A DNA stretch of 64,000 nt, taken from Bifidobacterium sp. N4G05 (lineage in GTDB: Bacteria > Actinomycetota > Actinomycetes > Actinomycetales > Bifidobacteriaceae). Positions 46,700-61,353 of this stretch are shown one piece after another. The stretch lies in assembly GCF_002742445.1 (NCBI RefSeq), contig NZ_NJNQ01000002.1, positions 62,001-126,000 of the forward strand, in the 5' to 3' direction. The first letter of the stretch is position 1; each line of letters starts with the position of its first letter. The position numbers were made by a program, and so were the translations under genes. The notes below the pieces were generated by a model. That model had not been told where the DNA came from. It ran no database searches and was given only the letters and a program-made list of their open reading frames with translations.

Positions 46700-48127
46700 A
46701 TGGAAGCCATGGACGGCACTCCCCCTCAAATCCCTGGGTACGCATTCGCCCAGAAGTTGGGTTCAGGTTCCGAAGCGAATGTGTACTTGTACCAGCAGCT
46801 TTCCCCCAGCCGTCAGGTGGCCATCAAAGTCAGCAGGGGAACGCTCGACCTGCGCGCGGCGGCAAGATTCCGTTCCGAGGCGAACTTCATGGGCAAGATC
46901 TCATCACACCCTTACATTCTTTCGGTGTACGAAAGCGGAGTCACCACCACAGGCAACGGCTATACCGTGTTCGAATACGCTCCGGGAGGCAATTACAAGA
47001 CCTTCCTGGAATCCAACCGTCTCAGCGCAGACCAGATGCTCACCGTCGGCATCAATCTGGCAAGCGCCCTTTTCACGGCGCACCGCGAAGGCATCATCCA
47101 CCGCGACATCAAGCCCAGCAATATTCTTATCAACGCGCATGGCATGCCCATGCTTTCCGATTTCGGCATCGCGGGAACGATTTATGGGCGCCCCGGCATC
47201 GGCTACACCATCGCGTGGGCTCCGCCGGAAGTGCTTGCGAAGAACGGCGGAGGCAACGAATCCTCTGACATCTATTCTTTGGGGGCGACGCTGTCCGCCA
47301 TGCTGATGGGCCAGTCGCCGTACGAATACGGCTATTCCGCAGCTCTTGGCGCAACCCGAGGCAAAAATCGCGGCGCTCTGCTGCGGAACATCATTCTCAC
47401 CAATCCGCTGCCCAAGCTCAACAGGCCGGATATTCCCCAGCAAGTGGAGCGGATCCTGCGCAAGGCGTTGAATAAAACTCCGGAGGACCGATATTATTCC
47501 GCATACGATTTCGCACGTGATATGCAGCGTGCGCAGCAGGAATTGTATGGCCATGCCACGCCGACCACAGTTGAGGGGGAACCGCCGTTCCCGCAGAACC
47601 TGTACACGCAGGCGCAGACGAACGTTCAGGTTTCGCCGACTGCCCCAAAGCAGCGCAGCACTTGGGCCAAGCCTCTTGCGATCGTTGTTTCGGTGGTCGT
47701 CGCGATTGCAGCCGTCGCGCTGGTGTTCACGTATGCGATCATGCCGAATATGGATTCCGCTTCCGACAACAGCAGCGTGCAGATCAAGAATCCAGGAACA
47801 CGCGATCAGGAGAACGATTCACCGGATTCGGCCATCACCACCGGCAGTGTGCCCAGTGTCGAGAATATGACCGGGTCATATTCCGCCGATGGCAGCAGCG
47901 TGCAGTTCACTTGGGTGAACCCCGACCCTCAGGATGGGGATTCGTACGTGTGGTCACTGGTCGGCGATGCCGGCATCGATTCGAACGCCCAGGGAACCAC
48001 CACCACCGACACTCATATCAGCATCGAACCCGCCGACGGCTCGCAGACCTGCATTCAGGTGAGCCTCATCCGGACCGACCGTCAGATGTCGCAGAATCCT
48101 ACGATCGCGTGCGCAGCTAAACCATAA
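46700..48127 (+). CDS. pkb2: Transmembrane serine/threonine protein kinase (Pkb2-like)
   Basis: First gene of the kinase/FN3 cluster. The cytoplasmic kinase domain has a Gly loop GSGSEANVYLY (21-31), K43, HRDIKPSN (H134-N141), DFG (154-156) and an APPE motif (174-177). One membrane helix (about 325-347) leads to an extracellular domain of about 125 residues (YSADGSSVQFTWVNPDPQDG) that looks like a single FN3-type fold. There are no PASTA repeats, so ligand sensing differs from PknB. GAGGAAAGAGAG precedes the ATG. Its frame and position match the bifidobacterial gene reported as pkb2; probable substrates lie downstream. Confidence 0.92.
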   Translation: MEAMDGTPPQIPGYAFAQKLGSGSEANVYLYQQLSPSRQVAIKVSRGTLDLRAAARFRSEANFMGKISSHPYILSVYESGVTTTGNGYTVFEYAPGGNYKTFLESNRLSADQMLTVGINLASALFTAHREGIIHRDIKPSNILINAHGMPMLSDFGIAGTIYGRPGIGYTIAWAPPEVLAKNGGGNESSDIYSLGATLSAMLMGQSPYEYGYSAALGATRGKNRGALLRNIILTNPLPKLNRPDIPQQVERILRKALNKTPEDRYYSAYDFARDMQRAQQELYGHATPTTVEGEPPFPQNLYTQAQTNVQVSPTAPKQRSTWAKPLAIVVSVVVAIAAVALVFTYAIMPNMDSASDNSSVQIKNPGTRDQENDSPDSAITTGSVPSVENMTGSYSADGSSVQFTWVNPDPQDGDSYVWSLVGDAGIDSNAQGTTTTDTHISIEPADGSQTCIQVSLIRTDRQMSQNPTIACAAKP

Positions 48128-48232: not shown

Positions 48233-51200
48233 ATGGGCAAACGCAAGAACGCAGCCAATCAGTCGGCACAATCGTATGAACGTCAATTGCGCTTCGGATC
48301 GATGATGCGCAAACTACTGTTGCCGTCGGGAAGCAGACGGTGGATCACACCGATCATCATGCTGCTTCTGCTGCTGGGCATCATCGCAGGCGCGTTCATC
48401 GTCCATTCGGTGACGCAACGGCATGTGCAACTTGACGACGGCACCGTGTGGATCACTTCGCTGAAGGACCGCAAGGCCGCACGATTCAATGCGAAAAACA
48501 AGGATGTGAACGCTGGAGTCTCATCCGCGGCCTCCCGTTTCGACGTGGCCCAACATAATGGCAGCACCGTGATTTCCGAAGGTACGAAAGCCAGCAACAT
48601 CGCGGCTTCCACCATCAGCGAAACCGGCAACACCGCCATCAAAACGGATATCGAAACCATTGTCGGAGGCGACACCGCAGCGTTCATCAATGTCAAAACC
48701 GGCAATGTGTGGGTGGGATCCGCTTCCGATGTGAAATCCGTCAATCCAACCACCGACAAGCCGAACATGAAGCTGGGATCCGGTGGAAAAATCGCGTTGA
48801 CACACGACGGAACCGTATACGGATACCGTGCTTCCGATGGTGCGGTGCTGAGCCTCGACGGGCCGCAGGGCACGAACGAGCAAACAGACACAATCAAAGG
48901 CGCACCGCATGCCGAATCGTTCACCGTTATCGGCGCAACCCCGGTCGTGGCGGCGAAAAGCACCGTGTACTGGCCGCAGGGAAGCGCAGCCATCAATCTG
49001 CAGGGCGACATGACCTTGCAAACCCCTTCCACGGACGGCAAACAGAACGGATGGGTGGCCGTGGCGACACCACGTGGACTCGCAACGGTGAACCTCAGCA
49101 CCAAGAAAACCTCTGAAACCCCGAATTCCGGCAAAGGCGAGGCCGCCCAGCCGGTATCCACAGGAGGATGCGTATTCGCCGCATGGGCACAGAAAGCCAA
49201 CAATTACGCCAAAGCATGCTCCGCCGACGGTTCGGACACGACATTCGACACCCTGACCAACATCAACGCCACTTCGGAACTGATATTCCGCACCAACCAT
49301 CGTCTGGTCATACTCAACGACGTGGTCAACGGCAACGTCTGGAATCCGCAGGAATCCACCAAAGTCATCAAAATCCAATGGAACAAGGTGGAAACCAAAC
49401 AGTCGAAGCAGCAGGAACAGAACAACGATGGTGCCAACAACCAGCATAATTTCAGCAAAACCTGTTCGTCGCAATCCGGGCAGATCAAAGCGGAAGACGA
49501 TTTGCTCGGCGCGAGAACGGGATCGCAGCAGATTCTCGACGTGCTTCGCAACGACGAGCAGACCGACTGTTCCGTGCTGCGCATCACCTCGGTAAGCGCC
49601 CCGGACGGAGCCAACATCAGCGTCTCACCCGTATATGACGGACGATACCTGCAGCTCGACGCATCCGCGGCAGCCGAGGGATCGGTATCGTTCAGCTATG
49701 AGATTTCCGACGGACGCGGGCAGACATCCAACGCCAACGTGAACCTCACCTTGGTCGGAAACGACGACAACGCGCCCCAGCAAACCGATACGCCACCGGA
49801 AATCGACGTGGAGCAAGGAGCCACCTACACCACCAACGCTTTGGGCAGCTTCTCCGACCCCGACGGCGATCCGCTCACGCTCGTATCCGCAACCCCGCAG
49901 AACACCGACCAGGTGACCGTCTCCACGCGAGCCGACGGGCAGCTCGTATTCAACGCGGGATCCATGTCTTCCGGCAGAGCCAGCATCGAAGTAACCGTTT
50001 CCGACGGACAGCAGACCGGCACCGGCATGGTGTATTTCTCAGTGAAACCGGCCAACACGTTGGCCGCGGTGATTGATCCGGTAGTCAAGCAGACCACGCC
50101 AGACGCACGCACCACCGTCTCGCTCAAACAATACGTGCACGGCACCTCGGCCGAACCCACGCAGCTGACCGCCGTGGAAACCCCATCCGGCGCATCCACA
50201 GCCATGAACGCCACCGACATGTCGTTCACCTTCAGCGCGGCCAACCCCGGCACCTACTACGTGCCCTACACCATCACGCAAGGAACCATTCCCATGACCG
50301 GCCTGGCCCGCATTGAAGTACAGGCCGCGACCGGAGACTCCGCCAAACCCATCGCCGCCAACGACGTGGCACTGCTCGGCGCCGACAACACCGCGATCGT
50401 GGAGCCCCTGGCCAACGACGTCGACCCGATGGGCGGCGTATTGTCCGTGACCAACGTGACCGCCGACGCGGCAAGCGGCATCAAAACCGGCGTCGTGAGC
50501 AACAAGCGCGTCTACATCACCGCACGACAGGTGCCGACCGAACCCGTGCAAATCAAATACAGTGTAGCCAACGCAGCAGGCACGTCGACCGGCGTGATCG
50601 TACTGCAGCCGCCGGCGTTGACCACCTCCAACTCCATACCGAAAGCCGACAACATCACCACGCAGGTACGCACCGACGGCATCGTCTCCATCGACGTGCT
50701 CGACCACGTTACCTACTCCGACGGCACCACGGTAAACCTGCAAAACGACCTGCAATACGACAAGAGCACGTTCAAAGGACTCGTATTCGTATCAGGCAAC
50801 ACCGTACGATACCAAGCATCCGACCAAACCGGATCCTTCCCCGTAACGTACACGATCAAAGACAATCTCGGCAACGCGGCATCTGCCACAATCACCATCA
50901 ACGTGCATCAAAAAGACGCCGAAAACAAGGCGGCGCCAACACCATCCGACGTTGAAGCACAGGTTGCGGCAGGGCAGAAAGTCCAAATCCCAATCACCTT
51001 GACCGGCATCGACGCCGATGGTGACGACGTGCAGCTGCTCGGCCTTGGCAACAAGGCTCCGACGCTCGGACGCATCTGCGAAGTCGGAGCCACCTACCTG
51101 GTATACGAGGCATATGCCGATTCCGCAGGAACCGACACCTTCTCATACGCCGTCGAAGATTGGACCGGACAACGATCCCAAGCGCAAATCCGCGTGGGCG

Positions 51201-54200
51201 TGTTCACATCCGGCACCGACTCGGGCGTGTACGCGCGCGATGACGAAATCACATTGCGCCCCAACACCGCGGCAACCGTACCCGTGGCGCAAAACGACAT
51301 TTCCGGAGACAGCACCGACCTGACCGTCAGCGAAGACGTCGAATCGCAAGACATCAGCAATGTGACCGTAGTGGATAATGCGCTCGCCTTCACCACACCG
51401 CAGCAGGCGGGCACCTATTACGTGGTGTATACGGTCAAAGACAAAGCCGGATTGTCAGGCACCGCAACATTGACGGTGAACATCGATGGCAACGCCACCA
51501 TCGAACCGCCGACCGCATACGACTACCGTGTGCCTTCTTCGGCGACGATCGACAAGAAATCGGTCGACGTGGACGTTTCGCAATGGATTGCGAACCCTTC
51601 CGGCAGCGCCGACGAACTGCACGTGGCCGTTGATGATTCGGCCACCGACCATGCGCATGTCAAAGGCGGAGACAAGTCCACGACCATTACCGTGGAATTG
51701 ACGGACGAGGCGCGAGCCGTGCCATACACCGTGACCAACACGACGTATGACATCACGTCCACGGCGTTCATCCAAGTGCCCGCATACGGCGTGTTTCCGC
51801 CGGCCCTTCGGCCGAAAGCGCCGGCTTTGAAGGTGAACGCGCGCGAGACGATCACCATCAATATCGCCGATTACGTGCGCGTGGGCGCAGGCAAGACCGC
51901 ATATGTGGACGGCGCCGATTCGGTAAGCGCCACGAAAGCCGCGGACGGCGACCTGTATGTGAACGACCAGACGTTGAAGTTCACCGCGCCGAAGGACTAC
52001 TCCGGCCCTGCATCCATCACCTTCACCGCGGTGGATGGCAAGCGCGACAAGAACAACAAGGTGAAAATAATCAATTCGGCGGTGTTGACGTTGCCGATCA
52101 CCGTGATCGGGCGTGACGCGCCCGCGCCGACGTTCTCTTCGCCCACCATCGACGTGGTCGCCGGCGAAAGCGCCACCACCATCGACCTGACCGCGTTGAC
52201 CCATTCGGCGTCCGACCTATACGACGATGAAAAACAGTACACGTATTCTGGTGGCGCTGATTCCGACCAGGTGAGCGCCAAAGTGAGTTCTAACGGCAAA
52301 CTGACCGTGTCCGCCGACAAAACCACGTCACCGGGAACCACGGTGAGCGTGCCCATTTCAATCCAATATTCGAAGGGCACGGTGAACGCGGGCGTCACGG
52401 TTCGTGTGACGACCTCCAACAGGCCTTTGGCACGCATCAACGCGAAAACCGTGAAGGTCAAGGCGGGAAGCAGCGAGGAAGTGAACCTGCTTGCCGACGC
52501 GTACAATCCGTTCCCCGATTCCGCATTGACCGTGACCGGATGTACGTCCGACGGCGCGTCGAAGCTGACCGTGGACTGCCCGTCCAACGGCGTGGTGTCG
52601 ATCAGCGCAGCTTCCGACATCGGCTCGAGCATCAACAAGGTGATCGTCAACGTGCGTGATGCCACCAATACGAAGGAACGTGAGGTTACAGGCACCATCA
52701 GCGTTTCGGTAATGGACAAGCCGGATGCGCCTCTGCTCTCCCCCATCGCGGGAGACCCGCAGGATGGCGCGGTGAATCTGAGTTGGACGGCCGGTTCTTC
52801 GAACGGCAGCCCGATCAGCGAATACAAGGTGACGTGGAACGGCGACGGTTCCGGCGAGAAATCGTGCGGTTCCGTGACCTCCTGCCAGATTACCGGTTTG
52901 AAGAACGGCAAGACGTACTCGTTCAAGGTGCAGGCCAAGAATGAGGTCGGCTGGTCGAAGGAGTCGAACAGCGTGGAAGGCACGCCTGACAAGCTTCCGG
53001 ACGCGCCGACCGATGTGAAGGCCGAAGCCGGCAGGAACACCGTCGTTGTCACATGGAAAGCTCCGGAAGGCAATTTCTCCGCCGTCGACGGCTATGAGGT
53101 GACGTTAAATGGATCCAATATAGCGAATCCGACGCAAAAGGTTGAAGGTACAAGCTTCACGTTCAAATTCGACGACAATGCGATTACCAATGGCGCATCC
53201 TATACCGCCACGGTCAAGGCGCATAACAAAATGAACTGGAGTCAGCCATCCGCCGTGTCCAATGCCGTTTCGCCTTGGGGTAAGCCTGACAAACCAACCA
53301 TCTCCGCAGTGCAGAATGGCGACAAGATTGTGGTGAGCGGGCGGATCAATGACGCCCGTAACTCGAAATACCAGTCGATTACGGTAAGTATCAGAGACGA
53401 AGACAGATCCGTAGAGACCAATGCCACGGACTATTCCGTCGAATTCGACATCAAGAACGAGTGGTATTACAAAGAGACTAAGCCAACGATTACCGTGGTC
53501 ACGGAACGCAGTGGTTCGTCGAGCAGCGAAACATCCGTTTCGCCCTTCACAGCAGTCGACCCTCCAACCAATGTGAAGCTGGAACTCAGCAACAATACAT
53601 GTGTGGCGACCTGGTCCAAAAAAGGGCGCGTCACAGGCTTTGTTGTAAGGGCCAAGGATTATTACAATGCTGATCTTCACGAGAACAGAGCAGAATGGCC
53701 GCTTTCCGGTAACTGGAGCACCTGCGATACGGTAAATGTCCAGCAATACTTCATTGATACGTCACATATCAGCACCCCTGAAACTGCCAACAGCAATACC
53801 GTCGGCAACAAAATCAAAGCGGAAATCACTACCATGCCGACCCTTTCCTGGGATGCCAATGACACGAATCTCATCAAGGTCGCCGGCGGATCGGTGAAAA
53901 CATGGAATCAAATTGGCAGCTACTCTTTCGTATTCACCGGAGGTGGCAAAACATACGAAATCCCTTGGGCCCAAGGTACCAGTCAGTTGAACGCCGAAAA
54001 GCTACCAACGGGGGTTGACTACACATGGAAGTTTAAAGTCACCGGTCCAGACCCGGCACTCAACAACGAGGCAGACGGATCAACGATCAAAGACTCCGAC
54101 CGCTATAACGGACCAACCCCCGATCCTAAGCCTGATTCTAATCCGGACCAGTCGGGATCAGGGCAAAGTGACGCCCCTACGGCTTCATCCGTAGCTCTTT

Positions 54201-54262
54201 CCACCATCGATGGAAAAAGCAAGCCGTGGGTGAGAGGCTTGGCCTATTACGCCAATCGCTAG
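48233..54262 (+). CDS. fn3: Giant cell-surface protein with Ig-like and fibronectin type III domains
   Basis: A 2009-residue single-pass protein. A basic head and a membrane helix (about 37-58, PIIMLLLLLGIIAGAFIVHSV) put the rest outside. A beta-propeller-like stretch (60-400) precedes repeated Ig/cadherin-like domains. Several carry Asp/Gly-rich loops such as FSDPDGDPLTL near 540 and GIDADGDDVQL near 926. Two clear FN3 domains follow at about 1492-1585 and 1586-1685. The last 300 residues are less regular and end in a Pro/Asp/Ser linker without LPxTG. In B. longum a two-FN3 fragment of the equivalent protein has been reported to bind TNF-alpha. It is co-oriented with the kinase gene 105 bases upstream. 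Confidence 0.92.
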   Translation: MGKRKNAANQSAQSYERQLRFGSMMRKLLLPSGSRRWITPIIMLLLLLGIIAGAFIVHSVTQRHVQLDDGTVWITSLKDRKAARFNAKNKDVNAGVSSAASRFDVAQHNGSTVISEGTKASNIAASTISETGNTAIKTDIETIVGGDTAAFINVKTGNVWVGSASDVKSVNPTTDKPNMKLGSGGKIALTHDGTVYGYRASDGAVLSLDGPQGTNEQTDTIKGAPHAESFTVIGATPVVAAKSTVYWPQGSAAINLQGDMTLQTPSTDGKQNGWVAVATPRGLATVNLSTKKTSETPNSGKGEAAQPVSTGGCVFAAWAQKANNYAKACSADGSDTTFDTLTNINATSELIFRTNHRLVILNDVVNGNVWNPQESTKVIKIQWNKVETKQSKQQEQNNDGANNQHNFSKTCSSQSGQIKAEDDLLGARTGSQQILDVLRNDEQTDCSVLRITSVSAPDGANISVSPVYDGRYLQLDASAAAEGSVSFSYEISDGRGQTSNANVNLTLVGNDDNAPQQTDTPPEIDVEQGATYTTNALGSFSDPDGDPLTLVSATPQNTDQVTVSTRADGQLVFNAGSMSSGRASIEVTVSDGQQTGTGMVYFSVKPANTLAAVIDPVVKQTTPDARTTVSLKQYVHGTSAEPTQLTAVETPSGASTAMNATDMSFTFSAANPGTYYVPYTITQGTIPMTGLARIEVQAATGDSAKPIAANDVALLGADNTAIVEPLANDVDPMGGVLSVTNVTADAASGIKTGVVSNKRVYITARQVPTEPVQIKYSVANAAGTSTGVIVLQPPALTTSNSIPKADNITTQVRTDGIVSIDVLDHVTYSDGTTVNLQNDLQYDKSTFKGLVFVSGNTVRYQASDQTGSFPVTYTIKDNLGNAASATITINVHQKDAENKAAPTPSDVEAQVAAGQKVQIPITLTGIDADGDDVQLLGLGNKAPTLGRICEVGATYLVYEAYADSAGTDTFSYAVEDWTGQRSQAQIRVGVFTSGTDSGVYARDDEITLRPNTAATVPVAQNDISGDSTDLTVSEDVESQDISNVTVVDNALAFTTPQQAGTYYVVYTVKDKAGLSGTATLTVNIDGNATIEPPTAYDYRVPSSATIDKKSVDVDVSQWIANPSGSADELHVAVDDSATDHAHVKGGDKSTTITVELTDEARAVPYTVTNTTYDITSTAFIQVPAYGVFPPALRPKAPALKVNARETITINIADYVRVGAGKTAYVDGADSVSATKAADGDLYVNDQTLKFTAPKDYSGPASITFTAVDGKRDKNNKVKIINSAVLTLPITVIGRDAPAPTFSSPTIDVVAGESATTIDLTALTHSASDLYDDEKQYTYSGGADSDQVSAKVSSNGKLTVSADKTTSPGTTVSVPISIQYSKGTVNAGVTVRVTTSNRPLARINAKTVKVKAGSSEEVNLLADAYNPFPDSALTVTGCTSDGASKLTVDCPSNGVVSISAASDIGSSINKVIVNVRDATNTKEREVTGTISVSVMDKPDAPLLSPIAGDPQDGAVNLSWTAGSSNGSPISEYKVTWNGDGSGEKSCGSVTSCQITGLKNGKTYSFKVQAKNEVGWSKESNSVEGTPDKLPDAPTDVKAEAGRNTVVVTWKAPEGNFSAVDGYEVTLNGSNIANPTQKVEGTSFTFKFDDNAITNGASYTATVKAHNKMNWSQPSAVSNAVSPWGKPDKPTISAVQNGDKIVVSGRINDARNSKYQSITVSIRDEDRSVETNATDYSVEFDIKNEWYYKETKPTITVVTERSGSSSSETSVSPFTAVDPPTNVKLELSNNTCVATWSKKGRVTGFVVRAKDYYNADLHENRAEWPLSGNWSTCDTVNVQQYFIDTSHISTPETANSNTVGNKIKAEITTMPTLSWDANDTNLIKVAGGSVKTWNQIGSYSFVFTGGGKTYEIPWAQGTSQLNAEKLPTGVDYTWKFKVTGPDPALNNEADGSTIKDSDRYNGPTPDPKPDSNPDQSGSGQSDAPTASSVALSTIDGKSKPWVRGLAYYANR

Positions 54263-54343: not shown

Positions 54344-55684
54344 ATGAGCAACGAAAACGATGACGACGCCACCCAGCTGGGTTCCATCGGGCACCATATG
54401 AACAAGCCGCAACAGCCTGGCAATCCGCAGATGCGCCCCGCATTCCAAGCTCCAAGCCTGCCGACGCATCCGCAGAAGCAAAGCGGCGACGATGAAGACA
54501 CCGTGCTCAGCGCATACAACGCAACGCCCTCCAGGCCTGCAATGCCTACGGTTCCAACAACGCACCCCATGAAGGCGCAACCGGCACAGCCGGTGCAGAT
54601 GCAACAACCGTTGCCGCAATCGCAGCCAATTCCGGCAGCGGCACCACGCCAATTCCCGCAGGCCACAACATCGCAAGCCAAGCCCGCGCAGCCAGCCGCA
54701 ACCTCGTCCATGATGTCCGCGCCACAGGCCGACATCACCGAATTCCACAACCAGTTCGCCAAACTGGTCGACAGCGTCTCCCAGGTCGTGGTCGGCAAGG
54801 AACAACCGATCCGCCAATGCGCCACCGCCATGATTGTCGGCGGCCACATTCTGTTTGAAGACAACCCCGGAACAGGCAAGACGCAGCTGGCCCGAGGCCT
54901 CGCCAACTCCATCGACATGTCGTTCAAGCGCATCCAGTTCACTCCGGATCTGCTGCCTTCCGACGTGGTCGGCGTAACCTACTACGACCAAAAGAACGGC
55001 GAATTCGAATACCGCGAAGGCCCGATTTTCGCATCCATCGTGCTTGCCGACGAAATCAACCGAGCCTCGCCGAAAACACAGTCCGCGCTGCTCGAGGTCA
55101 TGGAAGAGCAGAAAGTCACCGTCGACGGCGAAACCCACGCGGTACCGCAGCCTTTCATGGTCATCGCCACCCAGAACCCCATAGAACAGCTCGGCACCTA
55201 CAAACTACCGGAAGCGCAGATGGATCGTTTCCTCATCAAAACAACCATCGGCTATCCGAGCCATGACGTGAGCGTGAGCATTCTCAAGCAGGTCAACGTC
55301 ACCGACCGTGCATCCACCGTACATGCGGTGCTCACCGGCAACGACGTGCTGCGCATGCGTGCCATCAGCGAAACCGTGCATCTTGACGACGCGATCCTCG
55401 AATACATCGTGCGCTTGGTGGAAGCGACGCGCCACAACGAACGCATTCAAGTCGGATCGTCCATGCGCGGCGCACTCGCGCTGACCCGATGCGCCCGTGT
55501 GTGGGCGGCGTCCAACAATCGCGGATATGTGGTGCCCGACGATGTGAAGCAGCTGGCTGTCGCCGTGCTCGCGCACCGCATCACGCTCACCGCGGAGGCC
55601 ACGTTCGCCGGATCCACCCCCGAACTGATGATCGAACAGATCCTCGAAAACGTACCTGCACCGACCGTAGGCGCCACCGTCTGA
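54344..55684 (+). CDS. MoxR-family AAA+ ATPase with disordered Thr-motif N-terminus
   Basis: A 446-residue cytoplasmic ATPase likely to remodel its cluster partners. The AAA+ module spans about 130-440: Walker A EDNPGTGKTQ (172-181), Walker B VLADEINR (D236, E237), and MoxR-type sensor NPIEQLGTYKLPEAQMDRF. The first 125 residues are Pro/Gln/Ala-rich and disordered, and contain two acidic Thr motifs, DDDATQLGS (T10) and DDEDTVLSA (T53). They resemble kinase phosphosites read by FHA domains, and near copies occur in the FHA protein at 60666. AAGGAG lies before the ATG. MoxR-DUF58-transglutaminase is a widespread trio. Confidence 0.94.
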   Translation: MSNENDDDATQLGSIGHHMNKPQQPGNPQMRPAFQAPSLPTHPQKQSGDDEDTVLSAYNATPSRPAMPTVPTTHPMKAQPAQPVQMQQPLPQSQPIPAAAPRQFPQATTSQAKPAQPAATSSMMSAPQADITEFHNQFAKLVDSVSQVVVGKEQPIRQCATAMIVGGHILFEDNPGTGKTQLARGLANSIDMSFKRIQFTPDLLPSDVVGVTYYDQKNGEFEYREGPIFASIVLADEINRASPKTQSALLEVMEEQKVTVDGETHAVPQPFMVIATQNPIEQLGTYKLPEAQMDRFLIKTTIGYPSHDVSVSILKQVNVTDRASTVHAVLTGNDVLRMRAISETVHLDDAILEYIVRLVEATRHNERIQVGSSMRGALALTRCARVWAASNNRGYVVPDDVKQLAVAVLAHRITLTAEATFAGSTPELMIEQILENVPAPTVGATV

Positions 55685-55776: not shown

Positions 55777-55830
55777 ATGCGACAATCCAAAACCATGCAA
55801 CGCAGGAGAACCATGCAACGCAGGAGAACC
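55777..55830 (+). repeat. 18-bp repeats carrying AGGAG-ATG at the DUF58 start
   Basis: Three 18-base units run from 55777. The second and third are identical (ATGCAACGCAGGAGAACC), and each supplies an AGGAG 4 bases before the next ATG (55813, 55831). A change in copy number would keep frame and alter the basic head MQRRRT and the number of start sites. Confidence 0.75.
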
Positions 55831-57015
55831 ATGCAACGATCCCTGCGACGCATCAAGCATCGCATCAAACGACTGGTCACCTCATATGTGTCACCACTCG
55901 GATGGGCAGTAGCCGGACTCACCATCGCCTCGCTCATAGCGTTCACGATCCTCGGATGGCATGAACTGCTGGCCATGGCGATCATATTCGTCTGCATGAT
56001 GGTCGCCGCCATCATGCTGTCGCTCGGCAACACGTCGTTCACTGCCACCATAGACGTGTCCAGAAGGCGAGTCACCGTGTCAGACACCGTGAAAGTCGAC
56101 GTGTGCGTCGACAATCCGGGACACACGCCAACCACATCCGCACGAGGCGACCTGTCCATCGGCGACAATCACGAACGATTCTCCATCCCCATGCTCACCG
56201 CTGGCCAATCACACCAAACAACCGTGGAATTCGCCGCCGTCTCCCGCGCGGTGTTGCCGGTCGGACCGCTTTCCATACGCAAAGGCGACCCATTCGGACT
56301 CGTACGGCACGAAAAGAAACTCGCCGACCAAATCAACGTGTTCATCCACCCGCAAACCGTCATGCTGAACACACTCAACGCCGGAATTCCGCGAGACTTC
56401 GAAGGTCAGCCCAGCGGCGAAATCGTCGACGACGACCTCGACTTCTACGGACTGCGCGAATACGAGCCGGGCGACGACGTGCGCAACGTGCACTGGCTCA
56501 GCTCCGCAAAAACGGGAGCACTGATGATCCGCCAATACGAAGCAACCCGACGTACCAACACCGCATTGACCATCAGCGTGAACCCAGACGACTACCTCAG
56601 CTCCGACGAATTCGAACTGGCGGTATCCGTCCACGCATCCATCGGCGTGCAATGCCTGCTCCAAAACCGCCCGGTAACCTCCCATGCGGGAAACGAACAC
56701 GCCACGCCATGCAACTCCACGGAATTCCTCGACGGATGCAGCGCCATTACCCCCGACATCAACGACAATCCGAACCTCGCACAAACCACCCTCGCCCACG
56801 CCTCCGACTCATCGTTCTACTACATCACCGTCGGCAGGCTCAAAAGCATCGACGAGATCAAACACATAGCGCTCGCGCTCCCCCGATCAGCAACCTGCGT
56901 GGTACTGCAAACCGCCATCGGGCAACCACGCGCCATCAAACAATACGCCGACTTCACCCTGGCGACCGTAGGAAACCTAGACGATCTTCCAATGATCATG
57001 GGGGTACTGGCATGA
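55777..57015 (+). CDS. DUF58 membrane protein
   Basis: A 412-residue partner of MoxR. After a very basic head, two membrane segments (about 40-85, GWAVAGLTIASLIAFTILGW and LAMAIIFVCMMVAAIM) precede a soluble domain. The DUF58 hallmark is DFYGLREYEPGDDVRNVHW followed by SSAKTGALMIRQYE. The ATG at 55777 has GAAAGG 6 bases upstream. Further in-frame starts lie in an 18-bp repeat. The stop overlaps the next start (ATGA). The biochemical role of DUF58 is not established; it often has a von Willebrand-like fold. Confidence 0.92.
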   Translation: MRQSKTMQRRRTMQRRRTMQRSLRRIKHRIKRLVTSYVSPLGWAVAGLTIASLIAFTILGWHELLAMAIIFVCMMVAAIMLSLGNTSFTATIDVSRRRVTVSDTVKVDVCVDNPGHTPTTSARGDLSIGDNHERFSIPMLTAGQSHQTTVEFAAVSRAVLPVGPLSIRKGDPFGLVRHEKKLADQINVFIHPQTVMLNTLNAGIPRDFEGQPSGEIVDDDLDFYGLREYEPGDDVRNVHWLSSAKTGALMIRQYEATRRTNTALTISVNPDDYLSSDEFELAVSVHASIGVQCLLQNRPVTSHAGNEHATPCNSTEFLDGCSAITPDINDNPNLAQTTLAHASDSSFYYITVGRLKSIDEIKHIALALPRSATCVVLQTAIGQPRAIKQYADFTLATVGNLDDLPMIMGVLA

Positions 57016-59546
57016 GCACCGCAGGATTCAGCAAACACAGCATCAACGCCAATACCGGCGAAACCCGCGCCGATCACACCACCGGATTCGGCAACACCTT
57101 CACCGAATCATCCACCGGCACCTTCACGGAAACAGGCACCGGAACAGGCTCATGGGCCGACTCCACACACTCCGCCATCTGGATGTCACGAGACGGCAAA
57201 TCGCAAGTCCTTCCCTACTTACACCGACCACGCGCCTCGCAATACGCAAGCTTGCTCGTAGCAGCCCTGCTCACCCTCGCCGCAGCCAGCAACCTCATCG
57301 ACGTCTACGGATCAGCCGCATCCTGGGCCCTCGCCGCCATTCCAGCCACCATCATCGGATCACTCGTGGCGCTCGCAGGCACGGTTCCCGCGCTCCGCCT
57401 CTGGTGGCAGATACTGTTCACGGCCGTCGCGCAACTGGTTGTCGGCCCGGTTCTGTTCCTCAACGACACCACCATCACACACTTCATCCCAACCCTGCGT
57501 ACGCTTACGCAAGGTTGGATGCAGATGCTTGGCTCCTTCAAATTCATTCTGTCGGTCGAGCCTCCAACCGGTACCGCGGACGGCTGTCTGCTTGCCGTAT
57601 GGACCATCTGCCTGTGGTTCGCGCTGCTCACCGGTATTTTCGCAGTGACGGAAGATGGACGATTCACCATGATCGCCATCATTCCCGTCATCGCCAATCT
57701 TGCGATCTGTGCATTGCTCGGCTCATCTTCCGGCTATTACCGCATATTCGTCGGCATCGCGATGGCGCTTGTGCTCGTGATTTGGATCAGTGCACGTTGG
57801 AAATTACTGGAATTGGGACGTTGGATCAGTTCCGTGGTAATCGTGGTTGTTTCCATCGCATTGGCGATCGGAGGATGCCTTGCCGTCGGCCAGGACCGCA
57901 CCATTCTGCGCGACCATTACGATCCGCCGCTCAGCCCGTACGATTACACAAGCCCGTTGAGCGGCATGCGTTCGTACATCAAAAACAGCAAGGACGATGT
58001 GCTCCTCACCGTTCAAAACCTGCCCGCAGGATCGGGCGTGCGGCTAGCGGTCATGGACCGTTTCGACGGCAACGTATGGAACCTGTCCGATTCCGCCATG
58101 TCATCGGACTCCTCCAACTACCATCGTGTCGGCACCTCTATCACCAACAACGCCGAAGGCAAGAAATTCACCGCAACATTCACCGTGAACAAAGGCCTGA
58201 GCGACTACTGGCTGCCCATGGCCGGAGCCGCATCGAGCGTGACCTTCGACAACAGCGAAAACGCCGACTCGTTCTATTACAACAGCGACACCATGTCGGC
58301 CATCTACCCTTCACGCACTTCCGAAGGCCTCACCTACACGGAAACCGGCATCATGCCAACAGTTCCCACCGACAAGCAAATCGTCAAAGCCAATGCAGCC
58401 TCCATCAGCCAGCCAAAAGCCGAAGACGTGCCCGATTGTGTGGACAAACTCGCCACAGCCATCGCCGGCGGCCAATCCAAAGGCGGCGAAGCAGCCCAGG
58501 CCATCGCCGAAAAACTCAAGGAATCAGGCTGGTTCTCGCACGGCTTGAGCGGCGATTACCCGTCTACCGCCGGCCACGGCAACTACCGTATCGACCAGCT
58601 GCTCGCCGGAACGGCCATGGTCGGAGACAGCGAACAATACGCCTCCGCAATGGCACTCATGGCGCGCAGCCTGGGACTTCCAAGCCGAGTGGTGCTTGGA
58701 TTCCTACCAAAAGATGATGAAGGCGACATCAGCGAAAACCGCACTGAAAAACAAGGGAAAAACACCGTCATCGAATTCACCGGCAACGACGTGACCGCAT
58801 GGGTGGAAATCAAACTGGACGGCTACGGCTGGGTGGCGTTCTACCCGACGCCGAAGGAAACCAAAGTCCCCGACGAAAACCAGAACCTCACCCCACCGAA
58901 CCCGCAGAATCTGGTGCGTCAGCCCCCAGTACCCCTCACCGACCCGCTGCGCGACGATAACCAAGCCAAAGGCAGGTCCTCAATCGGCGGAAGCATGGCT
59001 GACGAAACGTCAACCAACCTCTTCTGGCAGCATTTCGGCAGAATCGCAAGAAAAGTAGCCATCTACGGAAGCCCCCTGTGGACGCTGCTCATCGTATGCG
59101 GCCTCCTGCTCGCTATCAAAGCGATCGCATTGGCACGGTCAAGAAAACACGGCAGCGCGCAACAGCGAGTGGCAGCAGGATGGCAATCCGTGGCGGCGCT
59201 CGCCCGGCAAAGCGGACTTGACATTCAAGGCACGCGCAGCGAACAGGCGGTCTCCATCGCAAGCCAGATGGATATTTCCAGTGAAACGTTGCTTGCCTTG
59301 AGCACACAAGCCGATTACGCGACCTTCTCCGGTAATACCGTCAACGAGGAGCATGTGCAGCAGTATTGGCGCGATATTGAGCAGGAACGCCAGTACATGC
59401 TCAAGTCATTGCCGACATTGCGCAGATGGCGTGCCAAGCTTTCGCTTGCCGACGTTTTCCATTTTCAAGGCAAACGCGGCGCGAGCGACGATTCAGCGAA
59501 TAACGCAGCGGATACGGCAACCAATATTTCGGATGACAACGATTGA
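57012..59546 (+). CDS. Membrane transglutaminase-like protein (TgpA type) lacking the catalytic triad
   Basis: An 844-residue protein. A Thr/Ser/Gly-rich N-terminal tail (about 10-55) is followed by roughly six membrane helices (78-300), an extracytoplasmic domain (300-680), a last helix near 686-706 and a cytoplasmic tail. The fold-defining motifs are recognisable but the triad is not: the Cys position is S540 (GDSEQYASAM), the His position T595 (VTAWVE) and the Asp position Y611 (FYPTP). It is therefore probably a non-catalytic scaffold or binding protein. Translation is coupled to DUF58 by ATGA. Reading frames extending further upstream, inside DUF58, are not part of it. Confidence 0.9.
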   Translation: MSTAGFSKHSINANTGETRADHTTGFGNTFTESSTGTFTETGTGTGSWADSTHSAIWMSRDGKSQVLPYLHRPRASQYASLLVAALLTLAAASNLIDVYGSAASWALAAIPATIIGSLVALAGTVPALRLWWQILFTAVAQLVVGPVLFLNDTTITHFIPTLRTLTQGWMQMLGSFKFILSVEPPTGTADGCLLAVWTICLWFALLTGIFAVTEDGRFTMIAIIPVIANLAICALLGSSSGYYRIFVGIAMALVLVIWISARWKLLELGRWISSVVIVVVSIALAIGGCLAVGQDRTILRDHYDPPLSPYDYTSPLSGMRSYIKNSKDDVLLTVQNLPAGSGVRLAVMDRFDGNVWNLSDSAMSSDSSNYHRVGTSITNNAEGKKFTATFTVNKGLSDYWLPMAGAASSVTFDNSENADSFYYNSDTMSAIYPSRTSEGLTYTETGIMPTVPTDKQIVKANAASISQPKAEDVPDCVDKLATAIAGGQSKGGEAAQAIAEKLKESGWFSHGLSGDYPSTAGHGNYRIDQLLAGTAMVGDSEQYASAMALMARSLGLPSRVVLGFLPKDDEGDISENRTEKQGKNTVIEFTGNDVTAWVEIKLDGYGWVAFYPTPKETKVPDENQNLTPPNPQNLVRQPPVPLTDPLRDDNQAKGRSSIGGSMADETSTNLFWQHFGRIARKVAIYGSPLWTLLIVCGLLLAIKAIALARSRKHGSAQQRVAAGWQSVAALARQSGLDIQGTRSEQAVSIASQMDISSETLLALSTQADYATFSGNTVNEEHVQQYWRDIEQERQYMLKSLPTLRRWRAKLSLADVFHFQGKRGASDDSANNAADTATNISDDND

Positions 59547-60665: not shown

Positions 60666-61235
60666 TCAGCGCTGCTCGAACGTGAAGAACTGGTCTCCGA
60701 TACGAACCGTGCAAGGTGCCTCAAACTTCATCGGCTTGTGCTCGACCTTGGTCTCCTCATTGTCTCGAATAAGGTACGTGCCATTAAGCGATCCATAATC
60801 CTCAATCCATAACGTGCCATCCTGATCGAAGCTGATCGCCGCATGATTACGTGAAATCGTACGCGTCGAATCCTCCAATTTCACGGATTTAGCACCTTCC
60901 GGCACTTCAACGGACGGTTTGCGTCCCAGCAGCACGCCCATGTCGATAATCACTTCCTGACCGGTCTGCTCATTGTAAAGCGTGTATTCCAGCTTCGGCT
61001 GCTTCATGGTGAATGCCGAAGACAGCACCGTGCCATCCCAATCGATATCATCATCGTTGGCCGGTTCGTCATTGACCGACTCGTCATTGGTTGGTTCCAG
61101 CGAAACGGAAACCTGTTCCATCAGCTGAGATTGCGCCATTCCAGGCATTGCAGAATCGGCGAAGGAAGACATTACGGTGGCGTCATCGTCGTACCAGCCT
61201 GGTTCGGGCGGCGGCGGATATGGAAGGAAGCTCAT
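60666..61235 (-). CDS. FHA-domain protein with N-terminal Thr phosphomotifs (GarA-like layout)
   Basis: A 189-residue cytoplasmic phosphothreonine reader. The FHA domain (about 98-185) has the binding residues G104-R105, S128-R129-N130-H131 and N151-G152. The N-terminal tail has two acidic Thr motifs, YDDDATVMSS (T20) and DWDGTVLSS (T69), so phosphorylated tail and own FHA domain could form a switch as in mycobacterial GarA. Start: ATG at 61235 (MSFLPYPPPP). TACAAT lies only 8 bases upstream, suggesting a leaderless or short-leader mRNA. An upstream frame to 61337 is rejected. It is convergent with the LRV gene. Confidence 0.9.
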   Translation of the reverse strand: MSFLPYPPPPEPGWYDDDATVMSSFADSAMPGMAQSQLMEQVSVSLEPTNDESVNDEPANDDDIDWDGTVLSSAFTMKQPKLEYTLYNEQTGQEVIIDMGVLLGRKPSVEVPEGAKSVKLEDSTRTISRNHAAISFDQDGTLWIEDYGSLNGTYLIRDNEETKVEHKPMKFEAPCTVRIGDQFFTFEQR

Positions 61236-61353
61236 GCCCTTATTGTAATTTGACGTTTGATTTTGCGATGGTGATATTCGCCCTGCAATACAGGCAGTTT
61301 CGTAATATGCCGACTGTTGGCATAATAATCGCAACAATCGTCTTTTTTCATTT

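Follow-up and report, generated by a model that had tools for sequence, protein, structure and literature searches.

The PFNA locus and the fold of Tgm

The 64,000-nucleotide stretch of Bifidobacterium sp. N4G05 analyzed here (contig NZ_NJNQ01000002.1, positions 62,001 to 126,000, forward strand; hereafter the window) carries tgm (57012..59546, + strand), which encodes an 844-amino-acid polytopic membrane protein. Based on its open reading frame, Pfam matches, an AlphaFold model and structure comparison, the product is a TgpA-like pseudo-transglutaminase, in which the fold is retained and all three catalytic residues are replaced. It belongs to a set of five core genes arranged in the order pkb2-fn3-aaa-atp-duf58-tgm, all on the plus strand between 46700 and 59546 and identified by Pfam: pkb2 (46700..48127), a Ser/Thr protein kinase gene (Pkinase, E=1.4e-38); fn3 (48233..54262), encoding an immunoglobulin (Ig)/FN3 surface protein of 2009 amino acids (Big_9 and fn3); aaa-atp (54344..55684), encoding a MoxR-type AAA+ ATPase (AAA_3, E=2.4e-64); and, directly upstream of tgm, duf58 (55777..57015; DUF58, E=4.1e-9), the start codon of which is uncertain. 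Gene content and order are those of the PFNA cluster (PMC6803598, PMC8430577), and the window gene is the tgm of this cluster. Expression as one operon has been demonstrated for B. longum GT15 only (PMC8430577); MoxR is phosphorylated by Pkb2, and FN3 is adhesive (PMC8430577, PMC6803598 and PMC12607495). At the junction with duf58, the ATG start codon of tgm at 57012 overlaps the upstream TGA stop codon as ATGA, an arrangement that fits translational coupling, in line with the intact, translationally coupled gene noted in the first-pass annotation of this DNA.

Transglut_core (PF01841) matches residues 479-612 of Tgm (58446..58847, + strand) with 73.6 bits and E=1.9e-20, covering profile positions 2-108 of 108, and is also found in 60/60 Tgm relatives; an NCBIfam search with Tgm gave no match. 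The AlphaFold model has a mean predicted local distance difference test score (pLDDT) of 84.8, rising to ~97 across the transglutaminase domain. The first ~70 residues are disordered in the model and poorly conserved among relatives. They are followed by an N-terminal bundle of modeled helices, taken as transmembrane and TgpA_N-like (residues 74-291; 57231..57884, + strand). TgpA_N (PF11992) itself is matched in 35/60 family members and the DUF4129 C-terminal region in 6/60, the window protein being unmatched in both cases. Residues 313-618 (57948..58865, + strand) would form the extracytoplasmic part, which has the fold of the TgpA periplasmic domain (VIA-align against 6g4h: Z 23.1, rmsd (root-mean-square deviation) 3.3, 252 residues aligned; Z ~23 for both 6g4h and 6g49), compared with Z 7-9 for animal transglutaminases. 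The last long helix (residues 687-712; 59070..59147, + strand), likewise taken as transmembrane from a topology deduced from the model, precedes a C-terminal helical domain. In the model, a helical N-terminus presumed to lie in the membrane, a periplasmic transglutaminase domain and a beta domain preceding it resemble those of TgpA of Pseudomonas aeruginosa (PDB 6g49, 6g4h). Together, profile match and model clearly indicate an intact TgpA-type transglutaminase fold.

Replacement of the catalytic triad

Alignment with Cys-bearing relatives places Ser540 (58629..58631), Thr595 (58794..58796) and Tyr611 (58842..58844), all on the + strand, in the columns of the catalytic Cys, His and Asp, respectively. 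Both this assignment and the alignment of the fold motifs agree with what had been read from the sequence before. Misalignment can be rejected, as the flanking motifs G-x-x-E-Q-[YF]-A, A-W-x-E and G-W-x-x-F match those of the Cys-bearing relatives column by column. Moreover, an intact Cys-His-Asp triad is seen in a second, larger protein of the genus (L075-L080), demonstrating that the alignment is able to recognize a real triad. A triad located elsewhere in Tgm is also rejected, since Cys occurs in at most 11 rows of any column of the 60-sequence alignment, and the columns listed as richest in Cys lie outside the domain.

Of 101 Bifidobacterium genomes searched, the genome of the window included, 75 have a tgm orthologue. 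Both Cys and His are absent from 75/75, so that none of these orthologues keeps the triad. The catalytic Asp is kept in three (L059, L065, L068), and position 540 is Ser, Asp or Gly, Ser being the commonest. The orthologue L048 is interrupted by an internal TAG stop and breaks off inside the domain, before the Asp column; it is a possible pseudogene or assembly error. The breadth of the genus set rejects chance and, together with the substitution rates given below, a sequencing error or recent decay. In the part of the open-access literature available to us, no report of the missing triad was found; earlier notice in subscription papers is possible.

Tgm is the single Transglut_core match in the genome of the window (G000), and no catalytically complete member was found there at Pfam sensitivity. 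The larger proteins (~1,300-1,900 amino acids) that retain Cys-His-Asp in other Bifidobacterium species carry a Transglut_core related to that of Tgm and, at the same sensitivity, have no counterpart in the window genome. In G010 and G052 (G052:C1:1216646-1219777), the open frame that holds a DUF58 match is as long (1497 and 1533 amino acids) as that of the adjacent transglutaminase match, which suggests a DUF58-TgpA fusion.

TgpA retains the Cys-His-Asp triad, and its transglutaminase activity has been measured (PMC3507681). The Tgm clade, in contrast, has no Cys and no stable His or Asp, and Asp or Asn replaces the aromatic residue that precedes the Cys. The absence of the triad in the window Tgm and the presence of orthologous clusters across the order set the present findings apart from the published account of PFNA.

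Depth of the loss and selection on the domain

Further Tgm orthologues were supplied by order- and phylum-wide searches, in which loci were picked by similarity to the window Tgm, so that distant orthologues still carrying Cys may have escaped them. In a tree of 148 rows, built with the three triad columns left out, 127 Cys-less rows form one clade reaching across the order (SH-aLRT, Shimodaira-Hasegawa-like approximate likelihood ratio test, 98). The minimum number of changes on this tree is 2 for Cys, 11 for His and 16 for Asp, indicating that Cys was lost first and that His and Asp drifted repeatedly afterwards. Two Cys-less, long-branched TgpA-like sequences from outside the order, L092 (S-L-Y) and L096 (S-Y-D), are placed outside the 127-row clade and may represent separate losses of Cys.

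A scan of named genomes found Cys in 0/80 loci, with D-H-D as the commonest state (33/80); the patterns used contained GDxEQYA with the Cys column free and could thus show Cys only in genes with a preceding Asp. Carriers include Cellulomonas, Microbacterium, Sanguibacter, Jonesia, Georgenia, Agreia, Herbiconiux, Cryobacterium, Sinomonas, Pseudarthrobacter and Agromyces. A short contig labeled Stenotrophomonas maltophilia (L265) also carries tgm, with 39% identity to the query, and is probably actinobacterial contamination. These distributions indicate that the triad loss is far older than Bifidobacterium; a horizontal or Bifidobacterium-only origin is not supported, as members of the clade occur throughout the order in a conserved gene neighbourhood.

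Among 60 diverse relatives, the former triad columns belong to the most variable positions in the transglutaminase domain: column 540 holds S19 D18 A9 E7 G6 Q1 and never Cys, column 595 T22 H12 E11 and others, and column 611 Y20 D18 F9 H6 and others. G538, Q542, R559, W597, E599, G606 and W607 are invariant in the same set, and the transglutaminase domain is the best-conserved region of Tgm. The pairwise ratio of nonsynonymous to synonymous substitution rates (dN/dS) of the domain ranges from 0.03 to 0.21 in 11 genus pairs, in most of which the other three regions compared give higher values.

Alignment of Cys-less against Cys-bearing rows also reveals residues specific to the Cys-less clade. 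His522 and Arg526 delimit a conserved motif (58575..58589, + strand), H522 being present in 176/176 Cys-less members as opposed to 6/19 Cys-bearing relatives and R526 in 174/176 as opposed to 2/19. Position 539 (Asp539; 58626..58628, + strand) is Asp or Asn in 174/176 Cys-less members and, directly before the Cys of the active relatives, Tyr or Phe in 19/19. In L090, among the few exceptions, R526 and D539 are both changed, a single case that hints at a possible pairing of the two residues.

Co-inheritance of the PFNA core

Of the genus genomes compared, 14/14 with Tgm also encode FN3 and a full-length DUF58 protein. Neither is found in 26/26 genomes lacking Tgm, where DUF58 gives stray matches at E ~4e-4 only (Fisher p 4e-11 for the co-occurrence of tgm, FN3 and DUF58, a statistic that ignores shared ancestry). 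Outside the Bifidobacteriaceae, 19/19 loci of 20 kb from the order carry MoxR, DUF58 and TGM together. FN3 joins them in 18/19, with the arrangement FN3-MoxR-DUF58-TGM except in L157, where FN3 lies downstream of TGM. Among the named loci with full flanks, DUF58 lies upstream in 63/63 and MoxR in 62/63. By gene content, the PFNA core is an order-wide surface module of the Actinomycetales, found for instance in Cellulomonas and Microbacterium relatives. This contradicts PMC6803598, which states that no other organism was found to have PFNA orthologues, and PMC10688814, which restricts FN3 to Bifidobacterium. With the core present in such genera, a dedicated host-immune role cannot be the original one.

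Walker A and Walker B are both kept in the MoxR protein of the window and of the 19 order-level loci, and the energy source of the module looks intact. In von Willebrand A-like domains a DxSxS metal motif is expected. The DUF58 protein of the window lacks it at the aligned place (NTALTISVNPDDY), as do nearly all aligned order-wide orthologues. With a live ATPase and partners lacking obvious catalytic or metal sites, assembly or mechanical work would be easier to read from the module than chemistry.

Proposed role of Tgm

The clade-wide absence of Cys, purifying selection, invariant flanking residues and the intact fold strongly support the earlier suggestion of a retained, non-enzymatic protein. 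We consider Tgm a pseudoenzyme with near certainty; its role is very probably one in binding or assembly rather than in catalysis. Between the two jobs proposed for it at first pass, cell-wall peptide binding and binding of the FN3 protein, the complete co-presence and co-absence of FN3 and DUF58 within the genus and the order-wide synteny favour a role linked to the FN3 module over generic peptide binding, as far as genomic distribution can indicate. As the likeliest explanation, we propose a MoxR-DUF58-Tgm membrane module, in which Tgm would be an extracytoplasmic subunit without enzymatic activity: the cytosolic MoxR ATPase would supply energy, the DUF58 protein would act together with Tgm, and the dead Tgm domain would dock, fold, position or sense the giant membrane-tethered Ig/FN3 protein encoded in the same operon. 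We regard this FN3-linked scaffold role, in which the complex, its client and the direction of action are what we infer, as having about an even chance of being correct.

Several observations weigh against it. FN3 is not always adjacent to tgm, and L153 is without FN3 within its 20-kb stretch. Co-inheritance could mean a shared function without contact of Tgm with FN3, MoxR or DUF58. Moreover, MoxR-DUF58-TGase neighbourhoods are common in bacteria and also occur around active TgpA-type enzymes. This is also cited in PMC6803598.

A possible but less likely alternative is that Tgm is a receptor, whose dead domain binds a soluble ligand (a cell-wall peptide, a host factor or a metal) and signals across the membrane to MoxR/DUF58 or Pkb2, FN3 not being a client. 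The clade-specific conservation of H522, R526 and D539, predicted to lie on the side of the pocket, and the separate C-terminal helical domain, taken as cytosolic, are consistent with such a role, and ligand binding and signaling are what the PFNA authors propose for Tgm (PMC6803598, PMC8430577). However, the former active-site columns are unconserved, arguing against a single ligand chemistry kept there, the strict co-occurrence with FN3 is more directly explained by an FN3-linked role, and a host ligand does not fit the soil genera carrying the same gene. A further, unlikely reading would have the dead pocket repurposed as a new binding site at the root of the clade: D-H-D lineages could bind a metal or ligand, and the Bifidobacteriaceae would later have lost the site, leaving a purely structural domain. 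Behind it are the replacement of the aromatic residue before the Cys by Asp or Asn and, in many lineages, of the Cys itself by Asp, as well as the fixation, new or retained, of H522, R526 and D539.

Retained enzymatic activity with another nucleophile, Ser540 in bifidobacteria and Asp540 elsewhere, is very unlikely. In its favour, Bifidobacterium has Ser at position 540 more often than any other residue, and the most frequent state in other genera is D-H-D. Nevertheless, an alternative nucleophile is rejected, as column 540 shifts between six residues (S, D, A, E, G and Q) and column 595 between T, H, E, A, Q and others, no Cys is conserved elsewhere in Tgm, and a catalytic residue would not drift as position 540 does within a single genus from which the His is entirely gone. 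That the domain is a decaying relic without function, as the loss of all three catalytic residues and the internal stop in L048 might suggest, is hardly credible, since dN/dS is well below 1 in every pair, invariant residues persist across the order in what is the best-conserved part of Tgm, and the gene is kept in three quarters of the genus genomes (75/101).

A comparable fate is known for erythrocyte protein 4.2 (EPB42), whose transglutaminase fold likewise persists without catalysis, as a structural part of a membrane complex. EPB42 is eukaryotic, has a different domain set and possesses no membrane helices of its own. The likeness is one of fate and not of shared descent within the subfamily; the Tgm model matches the EPB42 structure (PDB 7uzs) with Z 7.0. 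EPB42 is listed as catalytically inactive in PMC10318531.

In work on bifidobacterial host interaction, Tgm is regarded as a transglutaminase or a cysteine protease; the sequence evidence indicates that it is neither. Its status as a pseudoenzyme redirects such work towards binding and assembly. The clade, in which a single ancient loss was followed by recurrent drift of His and Asp, offers a clean test case for what dead enzyme folds are kept for, as well as for the function of MoxR-DUF58-TGase modules.

Flanking genes

Downstream of tgm, a gene at 59723-60475 matches Pfam LRV_2 (E=3.2e-35) in two stretches separated by a Q/P-rich linker. A gene with an FHA domain lies nearby at 60666-61337 on the minus strand, opposite in orientation to tgm, and no prpC was seen in the window. 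In B. longum GT15, the same operon ends with an FHA gene (PMC8430577).
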